Shown: in pieces, positions 641-54,906 of the stretch
How positions within the stretch are numbered: the first letter of the stretch is position 1
How the letters are laid out: every line of letters starts with the position of its first letter
DNA from: Pseudacidovorax sp. RU35E
Lineage (GTDB): Bacteria > Pseudomonadota > Gammaproteobacteria > Burkholderiales > Burkholderiaceae_C
Reading direction: 5' to 3'
Length of the DNA: 64,000 bases
NCBI RefSeq assembly: GCF_900156165.1
Contig: NZ_FTMY01000007.1
Span: 124,001-188,000, forward strand
Program-made: the position numbers and the translations under genes
Notes under the pieces: generated by a model
What the model was told of the DNA's origin: nothing
Databases searched by the model: none
The model's input: only the letters and a program-made list of their open reading frames with translations

Positions 641-1285
641 ATGCGCGACGATACCCCCCTCCCTGAAGCGCGCCCACGCGATGCCGACCGATCCCAGGCC
701 GCCATCCTGCTGGCCGCGCGCGAGGAGTTCGCCAGCCACGGCCTCGCCGGCGCGCGGATGGACCGCATCGCCGAGCGCGCCGACGTCAACAAGCGCCTCA
801 TCTACTACTACTTCGGCAGCAAGGACGACCTGTTCCTTGCCGTGCTCGAGGGGGTGTATGCCGACATCCGCACTGCCGAGCAGCAATTGCACCTGGACGC
901 GGTCGAGCCCGTGGAAGCCGTTCGCCGCCTGGTCTCCTTCACTTGGCACTACTACCTGGAACACCCGGAGTTCATCACGCTGCTCAACAGCGAGAACCTC
1001 CACCGCGCCGAGCACCTGCGGCGCTCCGAGCGCATCCAGGAGATGAATTCGCCGCTGGTGCAGCTGCTCGACGGCGTACTCGAGCGAGGCCGGCGCGAAG
1101 GCGTGTTCCGCGCCGGGGTCGATCCGATCCAGCTCTACATCTCGATCGCTTCGCTGTGCTACTTCTATCTGTCGAACAACCACACGCTTTCCGCCATCTT
1201 CGGGCGTGACCTGCGCGCACCGAAGGCCATGGCGCAGCGGCTGTCGCACATGACCGAACTGGTGCTGGGTTACCTGCTGCACTGA
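641..1285 (+). CDS. TetR/AcrR-family transcriptional regulator
   Basis: A 214-residue protein of typical TetR length. The N-terminal helix-turn-helix is at about residues 36-58 (MDRIAERADVNKRLIYYYF, then SKDDLF), and the rest is an all-helical ligand-binding and dimerisation domain. TetR proteins are usually repressors released by a small ligand. The gene is divergent from the TPP enzyme and followed at 1462 by the receptor/DUF993 operon. Matching palindromes overlie its own promoter and the operon promoter, so it probably represses both (inference). The inducer is unknown; the operon's substrate or an intermediate is the natural guess. Confidence 0.95.
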   Translation: MRDDTPLPEARPRDADRSQAAILLAAREEFASHGLAGARMDRIAERADVNKRLIYYYFGSKDDLFLAVLEGVYADIRTAEQQLHLDAVEPVEAVRRLVSFTWHYYLEHPEFITLLNSENLHRAEHLRRSERIQEMNSPLVQLLDGVLERGRREGVFRAGVDPIQLYISIASLCYFYLSNNHTLSAIFGRDLRAPKAMAQRLSHMTELVLGYLLH

Positions 1286-1387
1286 TTGATCGCGCGAGCG
1301 CCAGGCGGCGCGCGCAGCCCCTTCGGACACCGCGCTGCGGGGGTCGCTCATCCGGGATTCCACCAAGACCTCATCGGCCGCGCTGCG

Positions 1388-1416
1388 TTGACGTGCAAGC
1401 GGTCAGCGCACAGAAT
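1388..1416 (+). promoter_or_regulatory. Predicted sigma70 promoter of the receptor/DUF993 operon
   Basis: TTGACG (1388-1393) and CAGAAT (1411-1416) lie 17 bp apart. Transcription would start near 1423, right at the left edge of the palindrome at 1425-1442. Sequence prediction only. Confidence 0.5.
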
Positions 1417-1424
1417 CGCCTGCA

Positions 1425-1442
1425 ATTCACCGATTGGTGAAT
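1425..1442. promoter_or_regulatory. Perfect palindromic operator, probably for the TetR regulator
   Basis: ATTCACC-GATT-GGTGAAT is a perfect 7+7 inverted repeat between the predicted transcription start and the ribosome-binding site AGGAG (1449-1453). A near copy lies on the tetR promoter at 617-634. The position fits repression by blocking RNA polymerase. Confidence 0.6.
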
Positions 1443-1461
1443 AAAAACAGGAGACATCGAC

Positions 1462-2439
1462 ATGCGTCCTTTCACCCGCACCGCCGCAGCAGCCCTTTTC
1501 GCCCTGTCTGCGGCGACCCTCCCCGCACTCGCCGACACGGCCTACCCCAGCAAGCCGATCCGCGTGATCGTGCCCTTCGCTGCCGGCAGCACCACCGACA
1601 TCATTGCCCGCGCCATCACCGACAAGATGAGCCAGAGCATGGGCCAGCAGCTGGTGATCGAGAACCGCGGCGGCGCGAGCGGCACCATCGGGCAGGCGGC
1701 AGTGGCCTCCGCCGCGCCGGACGGCTATACGGTGATGATCCATTCGTCCTCGCACACGGTCAGCCCGTCCACCTTTGCCAAGCTGCCCTTCGACACGGTG
1801 CGCGACTTCGCGGGCGTGACGCCGATCTCCTCCCTGTCGAACGCGCTGGTCGTGTCGCCGCAGAAGGGCTATCGCACGCTGAACGATCTGCTGGCAGCGG
1901 CACGCGCCCAGCCCGGAAAGCTCAACTTCGCTTCGGCGGGCCAGGGCAGTGCCACGCATCTCAATGCCGAGAAGTTCAAACTGGCCGCCCGCATCGATGC
2001 CACCAACATTCCTTTCAAAGGTTCGGCCGAGGCGGTGACCGAGGTGCTCGCCGGTCGGGTGGACTACTACTTCTCGCCCATCGCGCCGGTGATCGGCCAG
2101 ATCCGTGAAGGCCAGCTGCTGGCACTGGCCGTCGGCTCGCCGAAGCGCGCCAGCGCCCTGCCCGATGTGCCGACCACGGCCGAGGCGGGTGTGCCCGGCT
2201 CCGAGTTCAACTTCTGGATCGGCATGATGGCCCCGGCCAAGACGCCGCGTCCGGTCATCGAGCGGCTGCATGCCGAGGTACTCAAGGCCCTGGCCACGCC
2301 CGAGGTGAAGGAACGCTTCGCCAAGCTGGGCGCCGATGCGTGGACGCTCAAGCCCGAGCAGTTCGACGCCTACATCAAGGACGAGATCGTCAGCAATGCC
2401 GCGGTGGTCAAGGCCGCCGGCCTCTCGGCGCAGCAGTGA
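1462..2439 (+). CDS. Tripartite tricarboxylate transporter receptor (Bug/TctC family)
   Basis: A 325-residue periplasmic binding protein. The signal peptide covers residues 1-24, with cleavage after PALA. It then has the family's opening YPSKPIRVIVPFAAGSTTD and the usual two-lobe fold. AGGAG lies 8 bases before the ATG. Bug proteins capture carboxylates or related small molecules and hand them to a TctA/TctB membrane pair. None is encoded next to this gene, so it must use a distant pair or act as a sensor. It opens a four-gene operon with a dehydrogenase, a DUF993 protein and an isomerase-like protein, so its ligand is probably that pathway's substrate (inference). Confidence 0.95.
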   Translation: MRPFTRTAAAALFALSAATLPALADTAYPSKPIRVIVPFAAGSTTDIIARAITDKMSQSMGQQLVIENRGGASGTIGQAAVASAAPDGYTVMIHSSSHTVSPSTFAKLPFDTVRDFAGVTPISSLSNALVVSPQKGYRTLNDLLAAARAQPGKLNFASAGQGSATHLNAEKFKLAARIDATNIPFKGSAEAVTEVLAGRVDYYFSPIAPVIGQIREGQLLALAVGSPKRASALPDVPTTAEAGVPGSEFNFWIGMMAPAKTPRPVIERLHAEVLKALATPEVKERFAKLGADAWTLKPEQFDAYIKDEIVSNAAVVKAAGLSAQQ

Positions 2440-2497
2440 GCCTGCGCACGCACCAAGCCAACCGCCCTCTTCTTCCCTCGCAGAACAGCTTCTTCCC

Positions 2498-3673
2498 ATG
2501 GCCACTCAAAGACTCGGTTTGATCATGCACGGCGTCACCGGACGCATGGGCATGAACCAGCACCTGATCCGCTCCATCTGCGCGATCCGTGCGCAGGGCG
2601 GCGTCCCGCTCGCCAACGGCGACCGTGTGATGCCCGACCCCATCCTCATCGGCCGCAATGCCGACAAGATCGCGGCGCTGGCCCGCGCCCACGGCATCGA
2701 GCGCTGGGGCACCGACCTGGCGGCGGCGCTGGCCAATCCGCAGGACACCGTCTTCTTCGACGCCGGCACCACGCAGATGCGCCCCCAACTGCTGGCCCAG
2801 GCCATCCGCGCCGGCAAGCACGTGTACTGCGAGAAGCCCATCGCCACCAACCTCAACGAGGCGGTGGAGATCGCCCGCCTGGCCGACGAGGCCGGCCGCA
2901 CGAAGGGCATCAAGCATGGCGCCGTGCAGGACAAGCTCTTCCTGCCCGGCCTGCGCAAGCTGGACATGCTGCGCCGCGCCGGCTTCTTCGGCCGCATGCT
3001 GTCGGTGCGGCTGGAGTTCGGCTACTGGGTGTTCGAGGGCGACCTGCAGCCCATCCAGCGCCCGAGTTGGAACTACCGCAAGGAAGACGGCGGCGGAATG
3101 ATCCTGGACATGATGTGTCACTGGCGCTACGTGCTGGACAACCTCTTCGGCGAGGTCCAGTCGGTCAGCTGCCTGGGCACCACCCACATCCCCAGGCGCT
3201 GGGACGAGGCCGGCCAGCCCTACGAGGCCACGGCCGACGACGCGGCCTACGCCACCTGCCAGCTCACCGGCCACAACGGCGAGCCGGTGATCGCGCAGAT
3301 CAACATGAGCTGGGTCACGCGGGTGCGCCGCGACGACCTGGTGACCTTCCATGTCGACGGCACCGAGGGCTCGGCCGTCGCCGGCCTGCAGAGCTGCCGC
3401 GCCCAGTCGCGCGTGGCCACGCCGCGGCCGGTGTGGAACCCCGACATCAAGCAGACGATGAACTTCTTCGACCAGTGGCAGGAGATCCCGGATGTCGAGA
3501 CCTACGACAACGGCTTCAAGATCCAGTGGGAGCACTTCATCCGCCACGTGGTGGAGGACGCGCCGTACAAGTGGACGCTGCCCGAGGGTGCCAAGGGCGT
3601 GCAACTGGTGGAGGCCGCGCTCGACTCCTGGAAGGAGCGGCGCTGGATCGATGTGCCGCCGCTCGAGGTCTGA
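2498..3673 (+). CDS. Gfo/Idh/MocA-family NAD(P)-dependent oxidoreductase
   Basis: A 391-residue protein. The N-terminal Rossmann domain has a glycine-rich GVTGRMG loop at residues 12-18. The family's EKP motif is at 112-114, with the lysine binding cofactor or substrate. The C-terminal domain has DMMCHWRYVLD, giving the usual catalytic Asp/His pair at about 204 and 208. I chose the ATG at 2498 because the upstream in-frame codons overlap tctC. The family oxidises or reduces hydroxyls of sugars, inositols and related polyols. It sits 58 bp after the receptor gene and just before the DUF993 gene, so it probably makes the first keto intermediate (inference). The exact substrate is unknown. Confidence 0.92.
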   Translation: MATQRLGLIMHGVTGRMGMNQHLIRSICAIRAQGGVPLANGDRVMPDPILIGRNADKIAALARAHGIERWGTDLAAALANPQDTVFFDAGTTQMRPQLLAQAIRAGKHVYCEKPIATNLNEAVEIARLADEAGRTKGIKHGAVQDKLFLPGLRKLDMLRRAGFFGRMLSVRLEFGYWVFEGDLQPIQRPSWNYRKEDGGGMILDMMCHWRYVLDNLFGEVQSVSCLGTTHIPRRWDEAGQPYEATADDAAYATCQLTGHNGEPVIAQINMSWVTRVRRDDLVTFHVDGTEGSAVAGLQSCRAQSRVATPRPVWNPDIKQTMNFFDQWQEIPDVETYDNGFKIQWEHFIRHVVEDAPYKWTLPEGAKGVQLVEAALDSWKERRWIDVPPLEV

Positions 3674-50860: not shown

Positions 50861-52528
50861 ATGAAGCACCTGCTGAACCTGCTTGCCGCCGTCGCCCTCC
50901 TCGTGTGGGGCACCCATCTCGTGCGCACCGGCGTGCTGCGCGTGTTCGGGGGCGACCTGCGCAGGTTGTTGCAGCGCAGCCTGGGCAACCGCTTCTCTGC
51001 GGCGCTGGCGGGCATCGGCGTGACGGCGCTGGTGCAGTCGAGCACGGCGACCTCGCTGATGACCTCGTCCTTCGTGGGGCAGGGCCTGATCACGCTGCCG
51101 TCGGCCCTGGCGGTGATGCGTGGGGCGGACATCGGCACGGCGCTGATGTCGGTGCTCTTCTCCACTGATCTTTCCTGGCTGTCGCCACTCTTCATCTTCA
51201 CAGGCGTGGTGCTGTCGATCACCCGGCCGGCCAGTGCCGCCGGCCGCTTCGGCCGCATCCTGATCGGGCTGGGGCTGATGCTGCTCGCGCTGCAGCTGGT
51301 GGTGCAGGCCACCGGCCCGCTGTTCGAGAGCGAGGCCATGCGCGCCGTGATCGCCTCGATCACGAGCGACCTGATGCTGGAGATCACGGTGGGCGCGGCG
51401 CTGGCCGTGGTCGCTTACTCCAGCCTGGCGGTGGTGCTGCTGGTGGCCGCCATGGCCACCGGTGCGGTGGTGCCGCTGGACGTGGCCCTCGGCCTGGTGC
51501 TGGGCGCCAACCTGGGCAGCGGCCTGCTCGCGGTGCTGACCACGGCCAAGTCGCCACCGGCGGTGCGGCAGGTGACCGTGGGCAACTTCCTGTTCAAGCT
51601 GCTGGGCGTGGTGATCGCGGCGCCCTTCGTCGGGCTGGTGCTCACGCATGCGCCGATGGCGCTGACCGATTCGCCGGCGCAGCTGGTCGTGATGTTCCAC
51701 CTGGCCTTCAACGTGATCGCGAGCGTGGCCTTCATCGGTCTGACCACGGCCGTGGCCAAGCTGTCGATGAAGCTGGTGCCGGTGCCGCGCACGCCCGCCA
51801 CCGGCACGCGGCCGCGGCATCTGGATCCCTCCGCGCTGTCCACGCCCACGCTGGCCATCTCGAATGCTGCGCGCGAGGCGCTGCACCAGGCCGATGTGGT
51901 CGAGAGCATGCTGATCGGCGCGCTCACGGTCATCCGCAGCAACGACCTGCGGCTGGCCGAGGAACTGCGCAAGATGGACGATCAGGTCGACCGGCTCTAC
52001 TCGGACATCAAGTACTACCTCACCAAGATTTCGCGCGAGGCGCTGGGCGAAGAGGAAAGCCGCCGCTGGACGGACATCATCAGCTTCACCATCAACATGG
52101 AGCAGATCGGCGACATCATCGAGCGGGTGATCTCCGACATCGAGGACAAGAAGATCCGCCCTCACCGCAATTTCTCCGAGGCGGGCATGGCCGAGATCGT
52201 GGAGATGCACGAGCGGCTGGTGGCCAATCTGCGGCTGGGCATGAGCGTGTTCCTCAACGGCAATGTGCGCGACGCGCAGAAGCTGCTGGAGGAGAAGGTG
52301 CGCTTCCGCGATCTGGAGCGGGCCTATGCCAACACCCACCTCACGCGGCTGATGGACCGCACGGCGCCGAGCATGGAGACGAGCTCGCTGCATATCGACC
52401 TGATCAGCGACCTGAAGCGCATCAACTCGCACATCTGCTCGATCGCGTACCCGATCCTGGACTCGGCGGGGGCGCTGGCGCCAAGCCGGCTGCGGTCGTC
52501 GCTGGTGGGGGCGGACGAGGCGCGTTGA
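50861..52528 (+). CDS. Na/Pi cotransporter-family protein with PhoU-like domain
   Basis: A 555-residue protein. The N-terminal half holds two inverted NptA-type repeats with the QSST-like motif (GVTALVQSSTATSLMTSSFV, then LGANLGSGLLAVL). The C-terminal 220 residues are a PhoU-like helical domain (LHQADVVESMLIGALTVI, FTINMEQIGDIIERVI). Such proteins move phosphate with sodium, and some may export excess Pi. It lies 146 bp after the phosphodiesterase gene and could handle the phosphate it releases (inference). Confidence 0.92.
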   Translation: MKHLLNLLAAVALLVWGTHLVRTGVLRVFGGDLRRLLQRSLGNRFSAALAGIGVTALVQSSTATSLMTSSFVGQGLITLPSALAVMRGADIGTALMSVLFSTDLSWLSPLFIFTGVVLSITRPASAAGRFGRILIGLGLMLLALQLVVQATGPLFESEAMRAVIASITSDLMLEITVGAALAVVAYSSLAVVLLVAAMATGAVVPLDVALGLVLGANLGSGLLAVLTTAKSPPAVRQVTVGNFLFKLLGVVIAAPFVGLVLTHAPMALTDSPAQLVVMFHLAFNVIASVAFIGLTTAVAKLSMKLVPVPRTPATGTRPRHLDPSALSTPTLAISNAAREALHQADVVESMLIGALTVIRSNDLRLAEELRKMDDQVDRLYSDIKYYLTKISREALGEEESRRWTDIISFTINMEQIGDIIERVISDIEDKKIRPHRNFSEAGMAEIVEMHERLVANLRLGMSVFLNGNVRDAQKLLEEKVRFRDLERAYANTHLTRLMDRTAPSMETSSLHIDLISDLKRINSHICSIAYPILDSAGALAPSRLRSSLVGADEAR

Positions 52529-52589
52529 GGGCTTTGGCACGACCCCACTGGGTGCTTGGCGATGCGGAGTGTCCGTCGAGGCGGGTGCG

Positions 52590-52844
52590 CCGGTCCGGGC
52601 GGGGGCGGGCACCGCGGCGTGCTTCAGTGAGGCGGTCGGCCCTGCGGGCCGACTTCCCTGCGATGCTCGCGCACCCGGCCCGCGGCATAACTCGCTGCGC
52701 TGCCTGACGGCAGCTCCGCTCAAACAAACGCCGCGAGTCAGATCACGAAGCAGGCCTGTCCTTCGGCAGGCCTGCGGCCGGGCACGCTGCGCTTCTCGGC
52801 GCCTCACAGGCGCACACCACGGTGCCCGCCCCCGCCCGGACCGG
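52590..52844 (-). repeat. Structured inverted-repeat element, copy A
   Basis: A 255-bp element whose ends are perfect 24-bp inverted repeats (52590-52613 and 52821-52844; CCGGTCCGGGCGGGGGCG at the left end). Inside are GAGGCG/CGCCTC arms (52629-52634 and 52800-52805) and the core read on the minus strand: ACTCGC..GGCG..TTTGTTTGAGC..GCGAGT..GCCGC (52738 down to 52682). A GCAGGCCTG..CAGGCCTGC hairpin and a GTCGGCCC..GGGCCGAC hairpin (52635-52653) are also present. About 85% identical in its core to copy B, in opposite orientation. No open reading frame or transposase. Confidence 0.8.
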
Positions 52845-52895
52845 AATTGACCGCCGGTGCTGCACTCCCGCACGCCCGCACCCGCGCACCCGCGC

Positions 52896-52935
52896 AGGGA
52901 CGCAGGGACGTAGGGACGTAGGGACGCAGGGACGC
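52896..52935 (+). repeat. Five tandem 8-bp repeats
   Basis: Units AGGGACGC, AGGGACGT, AGGGACGT, AGGGACGC, AGGGACGC follow each other without gaps. A minisatellite-like tract between the two structured elements that may vary in number between strains. Confidence 0.85.
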
Positions 52936-52978
52936 GAGGCGCGAAGAGGCGGAGACGCGTCCGTGTCACCACCCCCAA

Positions 52979-53004
52979 CCGTTCGGGCTGAGCTTGTCGA
53001 AGCC
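52979..53004 (+). repeat. GTTCG..GTCGAAG dispersed repeat copy
   Basis: CCGTTCGGGCTGAGCTTG followed by TCGAAGCC. This is an intact copy of the 24-bp repeat also found at 5785-5808 and 44864-44981. Confidence 0.85.
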
Positions 53005-53136
53005 CTGCACAGCCCTGAAAAAGCAAGGCACGCTCAAGAATCGTTGCGGCACAGCATGACTTCGACTGGCTATGACCTCGAACCGCCACCGAGAGCCCAC
53101 AACACTCATGCCGGCCGATCGAGCACCCGGTGTCCG

Positions 53137-53374
53137 CGCGCGAGGAATGGCCCGGCGTGGGCGATTTGCGAGGCGGCGAGAAGCGCAGCGGACCCGGCCG
53201 CAGGCCTGCCGAAGGACAGGCCTGCTTCGTGATCTGACTCGCGGCGGTTGTTTGAGCGCAGCGCGAAGCGCGTAGCGAGTTCTGCCGCGGGCCGGGTTCG
53301 CGAGCATCGCAGCGGAGTCGGCACGCAGTGCCGACCGCCTCGCCATGAGCCCACGCCGGGCCATTCCTCGCGCG
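53137..53374 (+). repeat. Structured inverted-repeat element, copy B
   Basis: A 238-bp element with perfect 26-bp ends (53137-53162 and 53349-53374; GCGAGGAATGGCCCGGCG in the left end). These ends are unrelated in sequence to copy A's ends. Inside are GAGGCGG/CCGCCTC arms (53170-53176 and 53335-53341), the shared core ACTCGC..GGCGG..TTGTTTGAGC..GCGAGT..GCCGC (53237-53288), the GCAGGCCTG..CAGGCCTGC hairpin, and GTCGGCAC..GTGCCGAC (53317-53335). That last stem matches copy A's stem with a compensating base-pair change. Confidence 0.8.
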
Positions 53375-53584
53375 CCGCCCCACCATCAAACCGCCCAGAC
53401 CCAACCAGGCCTCCTCACCAAATAGCGCTCACCCAGCCACGCGTACACGATTCGTCACCCCCTTGCAGGCAGCCTCCCAGACCACCCGCCCCGCTCAGGA
53501 TATTGAGCTGACCCACGACTGACTCATCGTCACCCGCACGATGATCAGCGCCCTCTGGAAACCACGCCTGGGAGAAGGCCCGCC

Positions 53585-54253
53585 ATGAACGACATGACCC
53601 ACAAGCACCAAGACGCCACCGGCCTGCTGGACAAGCTCCAGTGGCGCTACGCCACCAAGAAGATGGACCCGGCCCAGGCCGTGCCCGCCGACAAGGTCGA
53701 ACGCATCCTCGAAGCGATCCGCCTCGCGCCCACCTCCAGCGGCCTGCAACCCTTCGAAGTGATCGTCGTGACCAACCCCGAAGTGCGCCAGCGCATCCAG
53801 GCCATCGCCTGGAACCAGGCCCAGGTCACCGAAGGCTCGCACCTGCTGGTCTTCGCCGCCTGGGACCACTACACGGCCGAGCGCATCAACCACATGTTCG
53901 ACCTGGTGAACGAGGAGCGTGGCTTCCGCAACGAGGGTTGGGAGGCCTACCGCCAGAAGCTGCTGGCCGCCTACCCGGGCCGGCCCGCCGAGCAGAACTT
54001 CGAGCACGCTGCCCGCCAGGCCTACATCGGCCTGGGCGCCGCCCTCATCGCCGCCGCCTTCGAGCAGGTCGACAGCACGCCGATGGAAGGCTTCGACCCT
54101 GCCGCGCTGGACGAGATCCTGCAACTGCGCGCGCGCGGCCTGCGCAGCGTCGCCATCCTGCCGCTGGGCTACCGCCAGGCCGACGGCGACTGGCTGGTGA
54201 ACCTGAAGAAGGTGCGCCGCCCGCGCGAGCAGTTCATCACCGAAGTTCGCTGA
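53585..54253 (+). CDS. Nitroreductase-family NAD(P)H-dependent oxidoreductase
   Basis: A 222-residue FMN enzyme of the NfsB-like group. LDKLQWRYATKKMD has the N-terminal FMN-binding Arg, LAPTSSGLQPFEVIVV and EQNFEHAARQAYIGLGAALI are the core, and ILPLGYRQADGDWL is the C-terminal FMN loop. It would reduce nitro compounds, quinones or enones. The gene follows the repeat island with no obvious partner. Homologues often respond to redox stress, but nothing in the promoter shows that here. Confidence 0.93.
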   Translation: MNDMTHKHQDATGLLDKLQWRYATKKMDPAQAVPADKVERILEAIRLAPTSSGLQPFEVIVVTNPEVRQRIQAIAWNQAQVTEGSHLLVFAAWDHYTAERINHMFDLVNEERGFRNEGWEAYRQKLLAAYPGRPAEQNFEHAARQAYIGLGAALIAAAFEQVDSTPMEGFDPAALDEILQLRARGLRSVAILPLGYRQADGDWLVNLKKVRRPREQFITEVR

Positions 54254-54348
54254 TCGCGCACAAGGCCCGCAGCGCGCTTCGACGCAGCGCTGCGGAGCCT
54301 GTGCTCAGGCCTTGCGCCGGTTCAACGCCGACGACCGACGGCGGCCGA

Positions 54349-54906
54349 TCAACCCGCGAAGCCGCCCTCGGCCAGGAAGGCCTCCTCCTGCGGCGTGCTC
54401 TGGCGCAGGAGGATCGCGTTGCGGTGCGGAAACCGGCCGAAGCGCTCGACGATGTCCCGGTGCTGCTCGCCATGGCGCAGGGCCTCGGGCGCAAGGCGGC
54501 GGTAGAGCTCGACCGAGCGCTGCTGGTCGGCCCGCGCTTCCGAATGCGCGAAGGGCAGGCAAAAGAAGAGCCGCAACGGCGGCTCCACCCCCATCTCATG
54601 ACCTTGATCCAACGCCCAGCGGGCCATGGCCCGCGCGCGCGGATCGGTCGCATACATGTGGGCGGTGCCGCGGAAGGCATTGCGCGGAAACTGGTCCAGC
54701 AGGATCAGCAGCGCCAGGGCGCCCGTCGGCGTTGCAGCCCAGTCATCGAGTGCACCGCGCGCCGCCGTGAGGTGAAGGCCCAGGTAACGCTCGAACAGTG
54801 CCGCATCGAAGGCATCGCTCTTGCGGAACCAGTTCGGCTGCGAGGCACGCCAGAAGTCCACCAGGGCAGCGGCTTCGGACGGAGCGGGGGCGGAGATCGA
54901 CGTCAT
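54349..54906 (-). CDS. DUF924-family protein
   Basis: A 185-residue all-helical protein recognised as DUF924 (TPR-like). ALVDFWRASQPNWFRKSDAF, LALLILLDQFPRNAFRGTAH and FFCLPFAHSEARADQQRSVE are the family segments, and FGRFPHRNAILLRQSTPQEE is the conserved end. No function is established to my knowledge. The start at 54906 is chosen because upstream residues are not family-like. It converges on the nitroreductase gene. Confidence 0.92.
   Translation of the reverse strand: MTSISAPAPSEAAALVDFWRASQPNWFRKSDAFDAALFERYLGLHLTAARGALDDWAATPTGALALLILLDQFPRNAFRGTAHMYATDPRARAMARWALDQGHEMGVEPPLRLFFCLPFAHSEARADQQRSVELYRRLAPEALRHGEQHRDIVERFGRFPHRNAILLRQSTPQEEAFLAEGGFAG

Follow-up and report, generated by a model that had tools for sequence, protein, structure and literature searches.

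Hairpin ends are known from other mobile systems. Those of IS200/IS605 elements, the substrates of TnpA, are subterminal hairpins read on one strand, and both lie on the same strand. Parvovirus inverted terminal repeats are inverted, branched terminal hairpins, and rolling-hairpin copying flips the hairpin. In bacterial intergenic regions, REPINs and BIMEs are inverted doublets of an imperfect palindrome that form hairpins and carry compensatory changes (PMC3116915, PMC8266576, PMC2817692). Repeated structured elements have also been considered on the RNA side. For the STAXI motif, single-stranded DNA was considered and UUCG loops argued for RNA, and the Burkholderiales-1 candidate motif was ambiguous as an RNA, with no Rfam accession in its table (Weinberg 2010, PMC2864571).

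The element described here lies in a 64,000-nucleotide stretch (the window) of Pseudacidovorax sp. RU35E (genome G000). It is probably (at a rough probability of 0.6) a non-autonomous, REPIN-like mobile DNA with two unlike, large branched-hairpin ends, inverted around a replaceable spacer and folding as single-stranded DNA, a reading that draws on sequence comparison. No description of it came up in searches of open-access literature, and none of six genus names looked for occurs in PMC3733652.

Organization of the unit

The bipartite unit (Table 1) corresponds to G000:C10:176590-177375 and is flanked by a Na/Pi-cotransporter-PhoU gene (ORF 50861-52528) and a nitroreductase-family gene (ORF 53585-54253). 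An initial annotation of the window had described two inverted copies of a structured element at this site, and these were recovered as located: 52713-52808 is 94% complementary to 53167-53262, 52629-52700 is 90% complementary to 53270-53341, and the part of the two copies that can be aligned is 84.8% identical over 211 columns. The end stems differ in sequence between A and B, as had been noticed. The hairpins GTCGGCCC..GGGCCGAC in A and GTCGGCAC..GTGCCGAC in B were both found, as were the two forms claimed for the inner-core hairpin. What has to be replaced is the idea that A and B are separate neighboring copies; they are instead two different ends of one unit. Searches used a model, R1, of 156 positions and 37 pairs, with the foot of the outer stem at a median of 44 nt past the 3' side of the model. 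It matches end A at G000:C10:176634-176800 (minus) and end B at G000:C10:177175-177336 (plus).

Read 5' to 3' on the core strand, an end consists of the outer stem, the A or B internal loop, box GCCGAGNAGCGCAG, P2, P3, the linker CTTCGTG, TGACTCG and P4, followed by TGTYYGAGC, P5, GCGAGTT, P4', P2', box CGAGCAYCGCAG, P6 and the outer stem again. P4 pairs CGYSGCRN with NYGCSRCG. The coordinates of these substructures in Table 1 were counted by hand.

Table 1. Features of the unit in the window
Feature	Position	Strand	Details
Whole bipartite unit (end A, spacer, end B)	52590..53375	no strand	core on minus in A, on plus in B
End A, outer stem and conserved core	52590..52844	-	arms 52590-52634/52800-52844, 45 nt, 89% complementary
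A hairpin P6, GTCGGCCC-GCA-GGGCCGAC	52635..52653	-	sequence reading, loop count
A core word	52718..52740	-	core-word match L017 minus 1241
A hairpin P3, form as in B	52750..52775	-	sequence reading, folding
Spacer between the ends	52845..53135	no strand	291 bp; minisatellite and second dispersed repeat inside (by reading)
End B, outer stem and conserved core	53136..53375	+	arms 53136-53176/53335-53375, 41 nt, 90% complementary
B helix P2, 5' arm (3' arm 53290-53297)	53192..53199	+	covariation, hand count
B hairpin P3, GNA apical loop with bulged A (CCGAAGGA)	53200..53225	+	sequence reading, folding, loop count
B core word TGACTCG..GC..TGTYYGAGC	53235..53257	+	includes P4 5' arm 53240-53247 and ACTCG 53237-53241
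B hairpin P5, GCGC-GAA-GCGC	53261..53271	+	sequence reading, loop count
B CGAGT, possible pseudoknot partner of ACTCG 53237-53241	53276..53280	+	nearly invariant
B helix P4, 3' arm (partner 53240-53247)	53282..53289	+	covariation, hand count
B hairpin P6, GTCGGCAC-GCA-GTGCCGAC	53317..53335	+	sequence reading, loop count

By reading, the content of the spacer varies from unit to unit, even relative to the orthologous spacer in G006. The window spacer holds an octamer minisatellite, GGGACGYA, at 52893-52935, and the orthologous G006 spacer (L150) has another tandem repeat, AGTTACGC. At 52980-53010 lies GTTCGGGCTGAGCTTGTCGAAGCC, variants of which also occur in the spacers of other units (L019, L021 and L027). 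The absence of a transposase, already remarked on in the initial annotation, holds for the six ORFs that overlap the window unit, which gave no Pfam match at E≤0.01.

The inverted pair with unlike A and B ends is the unit. Copy B, compared with its own genome, gave 23 match rows that resolve into eight minus-then-plus pairs, five singles and two end-stem cross-matches. With a profile built from 50 copies and applied to loci of which some had been picked as pairs, neighbors less than 1 kb apart were arranged minus-plus in 84 cases, plus-plus in one and plus-minus in none; the 261 profile matches are counts over partly overlapping loci, the pairs alone being dereplicated. Among loci unselected for pairing (L017-L144), 55 of 56 close neighbors had the inverted 5'-to-5' order and one was plus-plus. 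The opposite order, plus then minus, was seen in one weak, distant pair (L236) that lies outside the pair tally.

Outside the shared core, the ends differ in their internal loops, which are CCTN/GAAGC in A and CGAT or TGAT/GAGC in B. With A and B labels that rest on short motifs, the 84 pairs comprise 59 AB, 6 BB and 5 AA units and 14 unclassified ones, and AB units occur both ways round (27 and 32). Three loci of G000 that were single copies by BLAST (L024 to L026, on C14, C15 and C17) have, by reading, a core-less B stem, GGGCTCATACTTTTTCAGAAATCGCCC, as partner. At the site of L024, G001, a relative, carries a complete B end whose stem is different.

Fold and covariation

Single strands of either copy fold with z-scores of -11.3 to -14.7 relative to dinucleotide shuffles, and the long end stem must supply much of this. 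Covariation provides a separate view of the fold. Among 92 dereplicated copies, 13 column pairs covaried at E<0.02 and 15 at E≤0.05 under a tree-aware null, with E-values taken from 60 alignments simulated on the tree and an extrapolated tail. All 15 pairs lie within P1, P2, P4, P5 or P6, and each permits Watson-Crick or G.T pairing in no fewer than 89% of sequences; P2 is the helix that holds most of them. In a 50-sequence subset of these copies, 95.1% of cells were paired under the fold with three extra pseudoknot pairs, and the covariation score was 0.530, compared with 0.149 when shuffled (0 of 500 as high) and 0.05 to 0.09 when slid. The outer arms agree, since 172 of 181 copies scored ≥15 with their own arms and 12 of at most 181 did so with arms swapped between copies. 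The nested fold, P4 included, is supported by covariation, and the selection on structure that had been proposed from two copies is upheld by a formal test for significant covarying pairs.

The H-type pseudoknot suggested in the initial annotation fared less evenly. Its GGCG/GCCGC helix corresponds to P4 and covaries. The other helix, ACTCG with CGAGT, is complementary yet practically invariant, with pairing in 49 or 50 of 50 copies at each of its five pairs, and the last two of these draw on bases that P4 needs as well. The copies are compatible with the pseudoknot, which, with a second helix that hardly varies and competes with P4, is no more than possible.

Strand and nucleic acid

Of 1823 cells in P2 and P4 together, 62 are G.T and 9 are A.C, the imbalance to be expected if it is the core strand that folds. 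P3 goes the opposite way, with 4 G.T to 9 A.C. The total over all tabulated pairs (147 G.T to 143 A.C) is uninformative because one wrongly included outer P6 column pair supplies 70 of the A.C cells.

The apical loops also distinguish the strands. On the core strand, C-GNA-G or C-GNNA-G loops cap P3 in 77 of 92 copies, P5 in 77 of 90 and P6 in 59 of 92. The opposite strand has 2, 1 and 0 such loops at these positions, and base-shuffled segments average 9.2, 11.3 and 11.7. Over the three positions, 213 of 274 hairpins have such a loop: 195 are GNA triloops and 18 are tetraloops (7 GNRA and 11 other). RNAs prefer GNRA or UNCG loops. Hirao et al. described DNA mini-hairpins with a GNA or GNNA loop closed by two or more G-C pairs as extraordinarily stable, GCGAAGC having a melting temperature of 78°C and resistance to nuclease (PMC4686876). 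With C-GNA-G or C-GNNA-G loops on G-C stems, P3, P5 and P6 fall within this definition. The loop signature favors single-stranded DNA over RNA as the folding molecule and is the best evidence for a DNA fold. The choice between the two had been left open in the initial annotation, and the occurrence of GNA loops on one strand now tilts it toward single-stranded DNA. More generally, a GNA-loop signature may serve as a sequence-only means of separating DNA folds from RNA folds.

One alternative is a pair of structured noncoding RNAs, transcribed divergently or convergently and with the fold acting as RNA. Such RNAs would have the branched fold, the invariant unpaired words and the strong covariation seen here, and G.U is indeed favored over A.C in P2 and P4. 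However, G.T makes up just 62 of 1823 cells in these helices, the loops are mostly GNA triloops with just 7 of 213 being GNRA, genomic positions are varied, and few units lie in divergent gaps, where promoters lie. Furthermore, the Rfam comparison that had been proposed for the element returned no existing model, with no match at E≤1 in window positions 51500-54500 and none at gathering score in eight related loci. A pair of RNAs is thus unlikely, although it deserves some weight.

Another alternative is that stem covariation is purely mutational: template switching would correct one hairpin arm to match the other, and selection would play no part. Outer stems do change in clustered blocks between orthologues; in the G006 orthologue of the window unit, the A stem shows a matched block change on both arms, from CGGGCACC/GGTGCCCG to TAGGCAGC/GCTGCCTA. 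Template switching may explain part of the outer-stem covariation, but it offers no account of GNA loops confined to one strand, of internal loops that are conserved and unpaired words that are invariant, or of the scarcity of A.C cells in P2 and P4, and as a full explanation it is highly improbable.

Distribution and dispersal

At E≤0.01, each of the 15 genomes of the genus had R1 matches, between 2 and 26 per genome and 21 in G000. The wider searches used stricter filters and counted no more than 12 (family) or 10 (order) matches per genome. In the family, 151 of 250 genomes and 84 of 126 genera had a match (E≤0.001), as did 41 of 300 genomes in a sample of the order (E≤0.0001), 9 of the 41 being within the family. 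Further copies in related genomes, which the initial annotation had made a test of its proposal, are thus plentiful, and the element would rank among the commoner structured repeats of Burkholderiales. Outside the family, strong matches came from families f10 and f20; the remaining families gave short matches only, at about 1e-4 to 4e-9, which may be distant kin or chance. Examples of such short weak matches in other families are L231, L232, L236 and L237, L231 being a minus-plus pair and L236 a plus-minus pair.

The core-word matches listed, at least 80 in number, are mostly from Burkholderiales by title, with a few from other groups; Pseudacidovorax, Rubrivivax, Variovorax, Xenophilus, Ideonella, Methylibium and Hydrogenophaga are among the genera in these listed matches. 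A distant-mode search of plasmid and phage collections with one compact unit gave no match. One core-word match came from viral contigs (L238).

The element is dispersed and has moved. Five full sites in G113 are occupied by units of about 520 bp that are 91 to 97% identical, two more sites hold parts, and the repeat alignments stop near the unit edges. In G179, there are seven full loci that are 79 to 95% identical and two partial ones. All eight G179 sites tested against the congener G073, which has no R1 match at E≤0.001, are unoccupied there: the G073 flanks run through as one alignment at seven sites and as two pieces about 70 bases apart at the eighth. In these alignments, the missing unit falls in the intergenic gap, with one of the eight sites (L174) aligning poorly. 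The unoccupied gaps have diverged, so the unit can be placed to the gap but not to an exact junction or target duplication.

Within the genus of the window, sites with both flanks pairable are mostly occupied in relatives, and movement there therefore appears to be slow or over. Two apparently unoccupied sites in the genus proved to be one internal deletion and one diverged locus. At the window site itself, G001, G006 and G011 have both cores and G010 has a single one, as does G007, where the contig ends.

Genomic placement

Placement was assessed for 51 units with enough flank, at loci found through the core word or in G000 and with ORFs called by base composition. Two units lie inside an ORF call and 49 outside. 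The intergenic units comprise 18 in convergent, 29 in tandem and 2 in divergent gaps; among all 398 gaps at those loci, 50 are convergent and 57 divergent. Relative to the 214 background gaps of 50 to 1500 bp, convergent gaps are enriched (18 of 49 versus 28 of 214; p=3e-4) and divergent gaps are depleted (2 of 49 versus 45 of 214; p=0.003). This placement is what would be expected of insertions tolerated 3' of genes.

The same enrichment between convergent genes would suit a domesticated intergenic element that acts on mRNA 3' ends as a stabilizer, terminator or processing site, mobility being its history, and the window unit has been retained at one site across several species of the genus. 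Nevertheless, purifying selection against upstream insertions predicts an equal bias, and core-less and half-deleted forms persist, so that domestication as the whole explanation is quite unlikely. Settled copies of a mobile element could also be functional in mRNA 3' regions, a possibility that is compatible with mobility.

Search for a mobilizing enzyme and for cargo

RAYTs, which are Y1 tyrosine transposases, are proposed to mobilize REPs, and the element could be a true REP/REPIN moved in this way. Inverted intergenic doublets with few members in divergent gaps are consistent with this, and G000 has one Y1_Tnp gene. However, that gene (C9:167575) lies 27 kb away from the closest element pair found, and carriage of Y1_Tnp (PF01797) is not associated with the element, since 112 of 151 positive and 77 of 99 negative genomes carry one (Fisher p=0.55). 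No Y1 match was found in 39 of the 151 positive genomes, including G113, a single-contig genome with many copies, or in 14 of 71 element-rich genomes, G113 again among them; this list of 71 was compiled by hand, leaves out G000 and includes one 6-copy genome. The REP tag is likewise missing: in the ten bases 5' of the stem foot, GTAG occurs in 0 and GGAG in 1 of 170 cases. GTGG, a tag variant of some REPs, is found 12 times on the 5' side of these feet, and on the 3' side its complement is found 20 times; about 4.6 would be expected under even base composition, and this is a point in favor of a RAYT. The ends, at about 200 nt instead of 20 to 40, are not those of a REP. Taken together, the GTAG and Y1 tests disfavor mobilization by a RAYT, which is very unlikely, and the mobilizing enzyme is probably not a Y1 (RAYT/IS200-type) transposase.

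Some pairs 0.6 to 4.8 kb apart were examined as candidate autonomous copies. Judging from the ORFs, L067 and L223 each consist of separate units that occupy gaps within a liv/ABC-type gene cluster. Other wide pairs (L226-L229 and L192) had no recombinase or transposase among the ORFs scanned; their ORFs are LysR, metallo-hydrolase or HTH antitoxin-like genes or of unknown type.

Among these wide pairs, L228 (positions 1122-1777; G506:C6:380000-383000) is a cassette-like hairpin pair about 1 kb apart, with a minus-strand HTH gene weakly similar to MqsA/NadS antitoxins and a small partner ORF in its interior. L226 (positions 729-3066; G229:C61:25500-29300) is a wide pair with 351-bp inverted ends that are 88% identical and with a LysR gene and a small unknown ORF inside. 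The ends of L227 are related to those of L226; it has a different small unknown ORF and shares a common stretch after the left end. The interior genes of L226 and L227 could be cargo or chance.

Proposed mode of mobilization

As a REPIN-like mobile DNA, the element might work as follows. When the DNA becomes single stranded, as in replication, in repair or on cruciform extrusion, each end would fold on its own strand and form a stable body of three hairpins whose arms are capped by GNA. A trans-acting protein, from the host or from another element, would recognize the core common to both ends and cut near the feet of the outer stems, with the A and B internal loops distinguishing the ends. The unit would then be copied or moved into a new gene gap, mostly 3' of genes, where it would do little harm. 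By analogy, the element would be a giant REPIN, operating as has been proposed for REPINs and RAYTs (PMC3116915, PMC8266576).

A broader claim is held more tentatively. The element might represent an undescribed class of bacterial mobile DNA that has large, heterotypic, branched single-stranded DNA ends with GNA mini-hairpin caps, occurs in the majority of the genera sampled from a large family of Burkholderiales and is moved by an enzyme other than the known Y1 transposases, some wide pairs perhaps carrying cargo genes; this is possible but, on balance, doubtful. Should an enzyme that recognizes the fold come to light, a hairpin-guided system of DNA mobilization would be added to those known; for tests of this, the element supplies substrates that occur naturally, sites that lack a unit and copies that are nearly identical.

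Comparison with known systems

The fixed orientation of the ends (84 of 85 close pairs) sets the element apart from parvovirus inverted terminal repeats, in which the hairpin flips, and disfavors rolling-hairpin copying. The hairpins resemble IS200/IS605 ends in being read on one strand; the end hairpins of the element are inverted, however, and the units examined have no transposase gene. MITEs are similar in that the element is short, noncoding, dispersed and intergenic, with inverted ends and unoccupied sites in relatives. Unlike in MITEs, the ends are branched hairpins, and the wide pairs examined contain no parental transposase.

For the STAXI motif, UUCG loops pointed to RNA (PMC2864571); the same reasoning applied to the DNA-stabilizing GNA loops of the element leads in the opposite direction. 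Burkholderiales-1 comes from the same order and was compared by its table row in that source; it could be the same motif.

REPINs and BIMEs share with the element the arrangement as intergenic inverted doublets of hairpins with compensatory changes. A REP, however, is a simple palindrome of 20 to 40 nt, whereas the ends of the element are about 200 nt long and branched, with three hairpins that are mostly GNA capped. The element also has two different end types, and it lacks both the GTAG tag (0 of 170) and a link to a Y1 gene. There is a fair chance that this REPIN-like unit, far larger in scale than REPINs, should be placed in a separate class.
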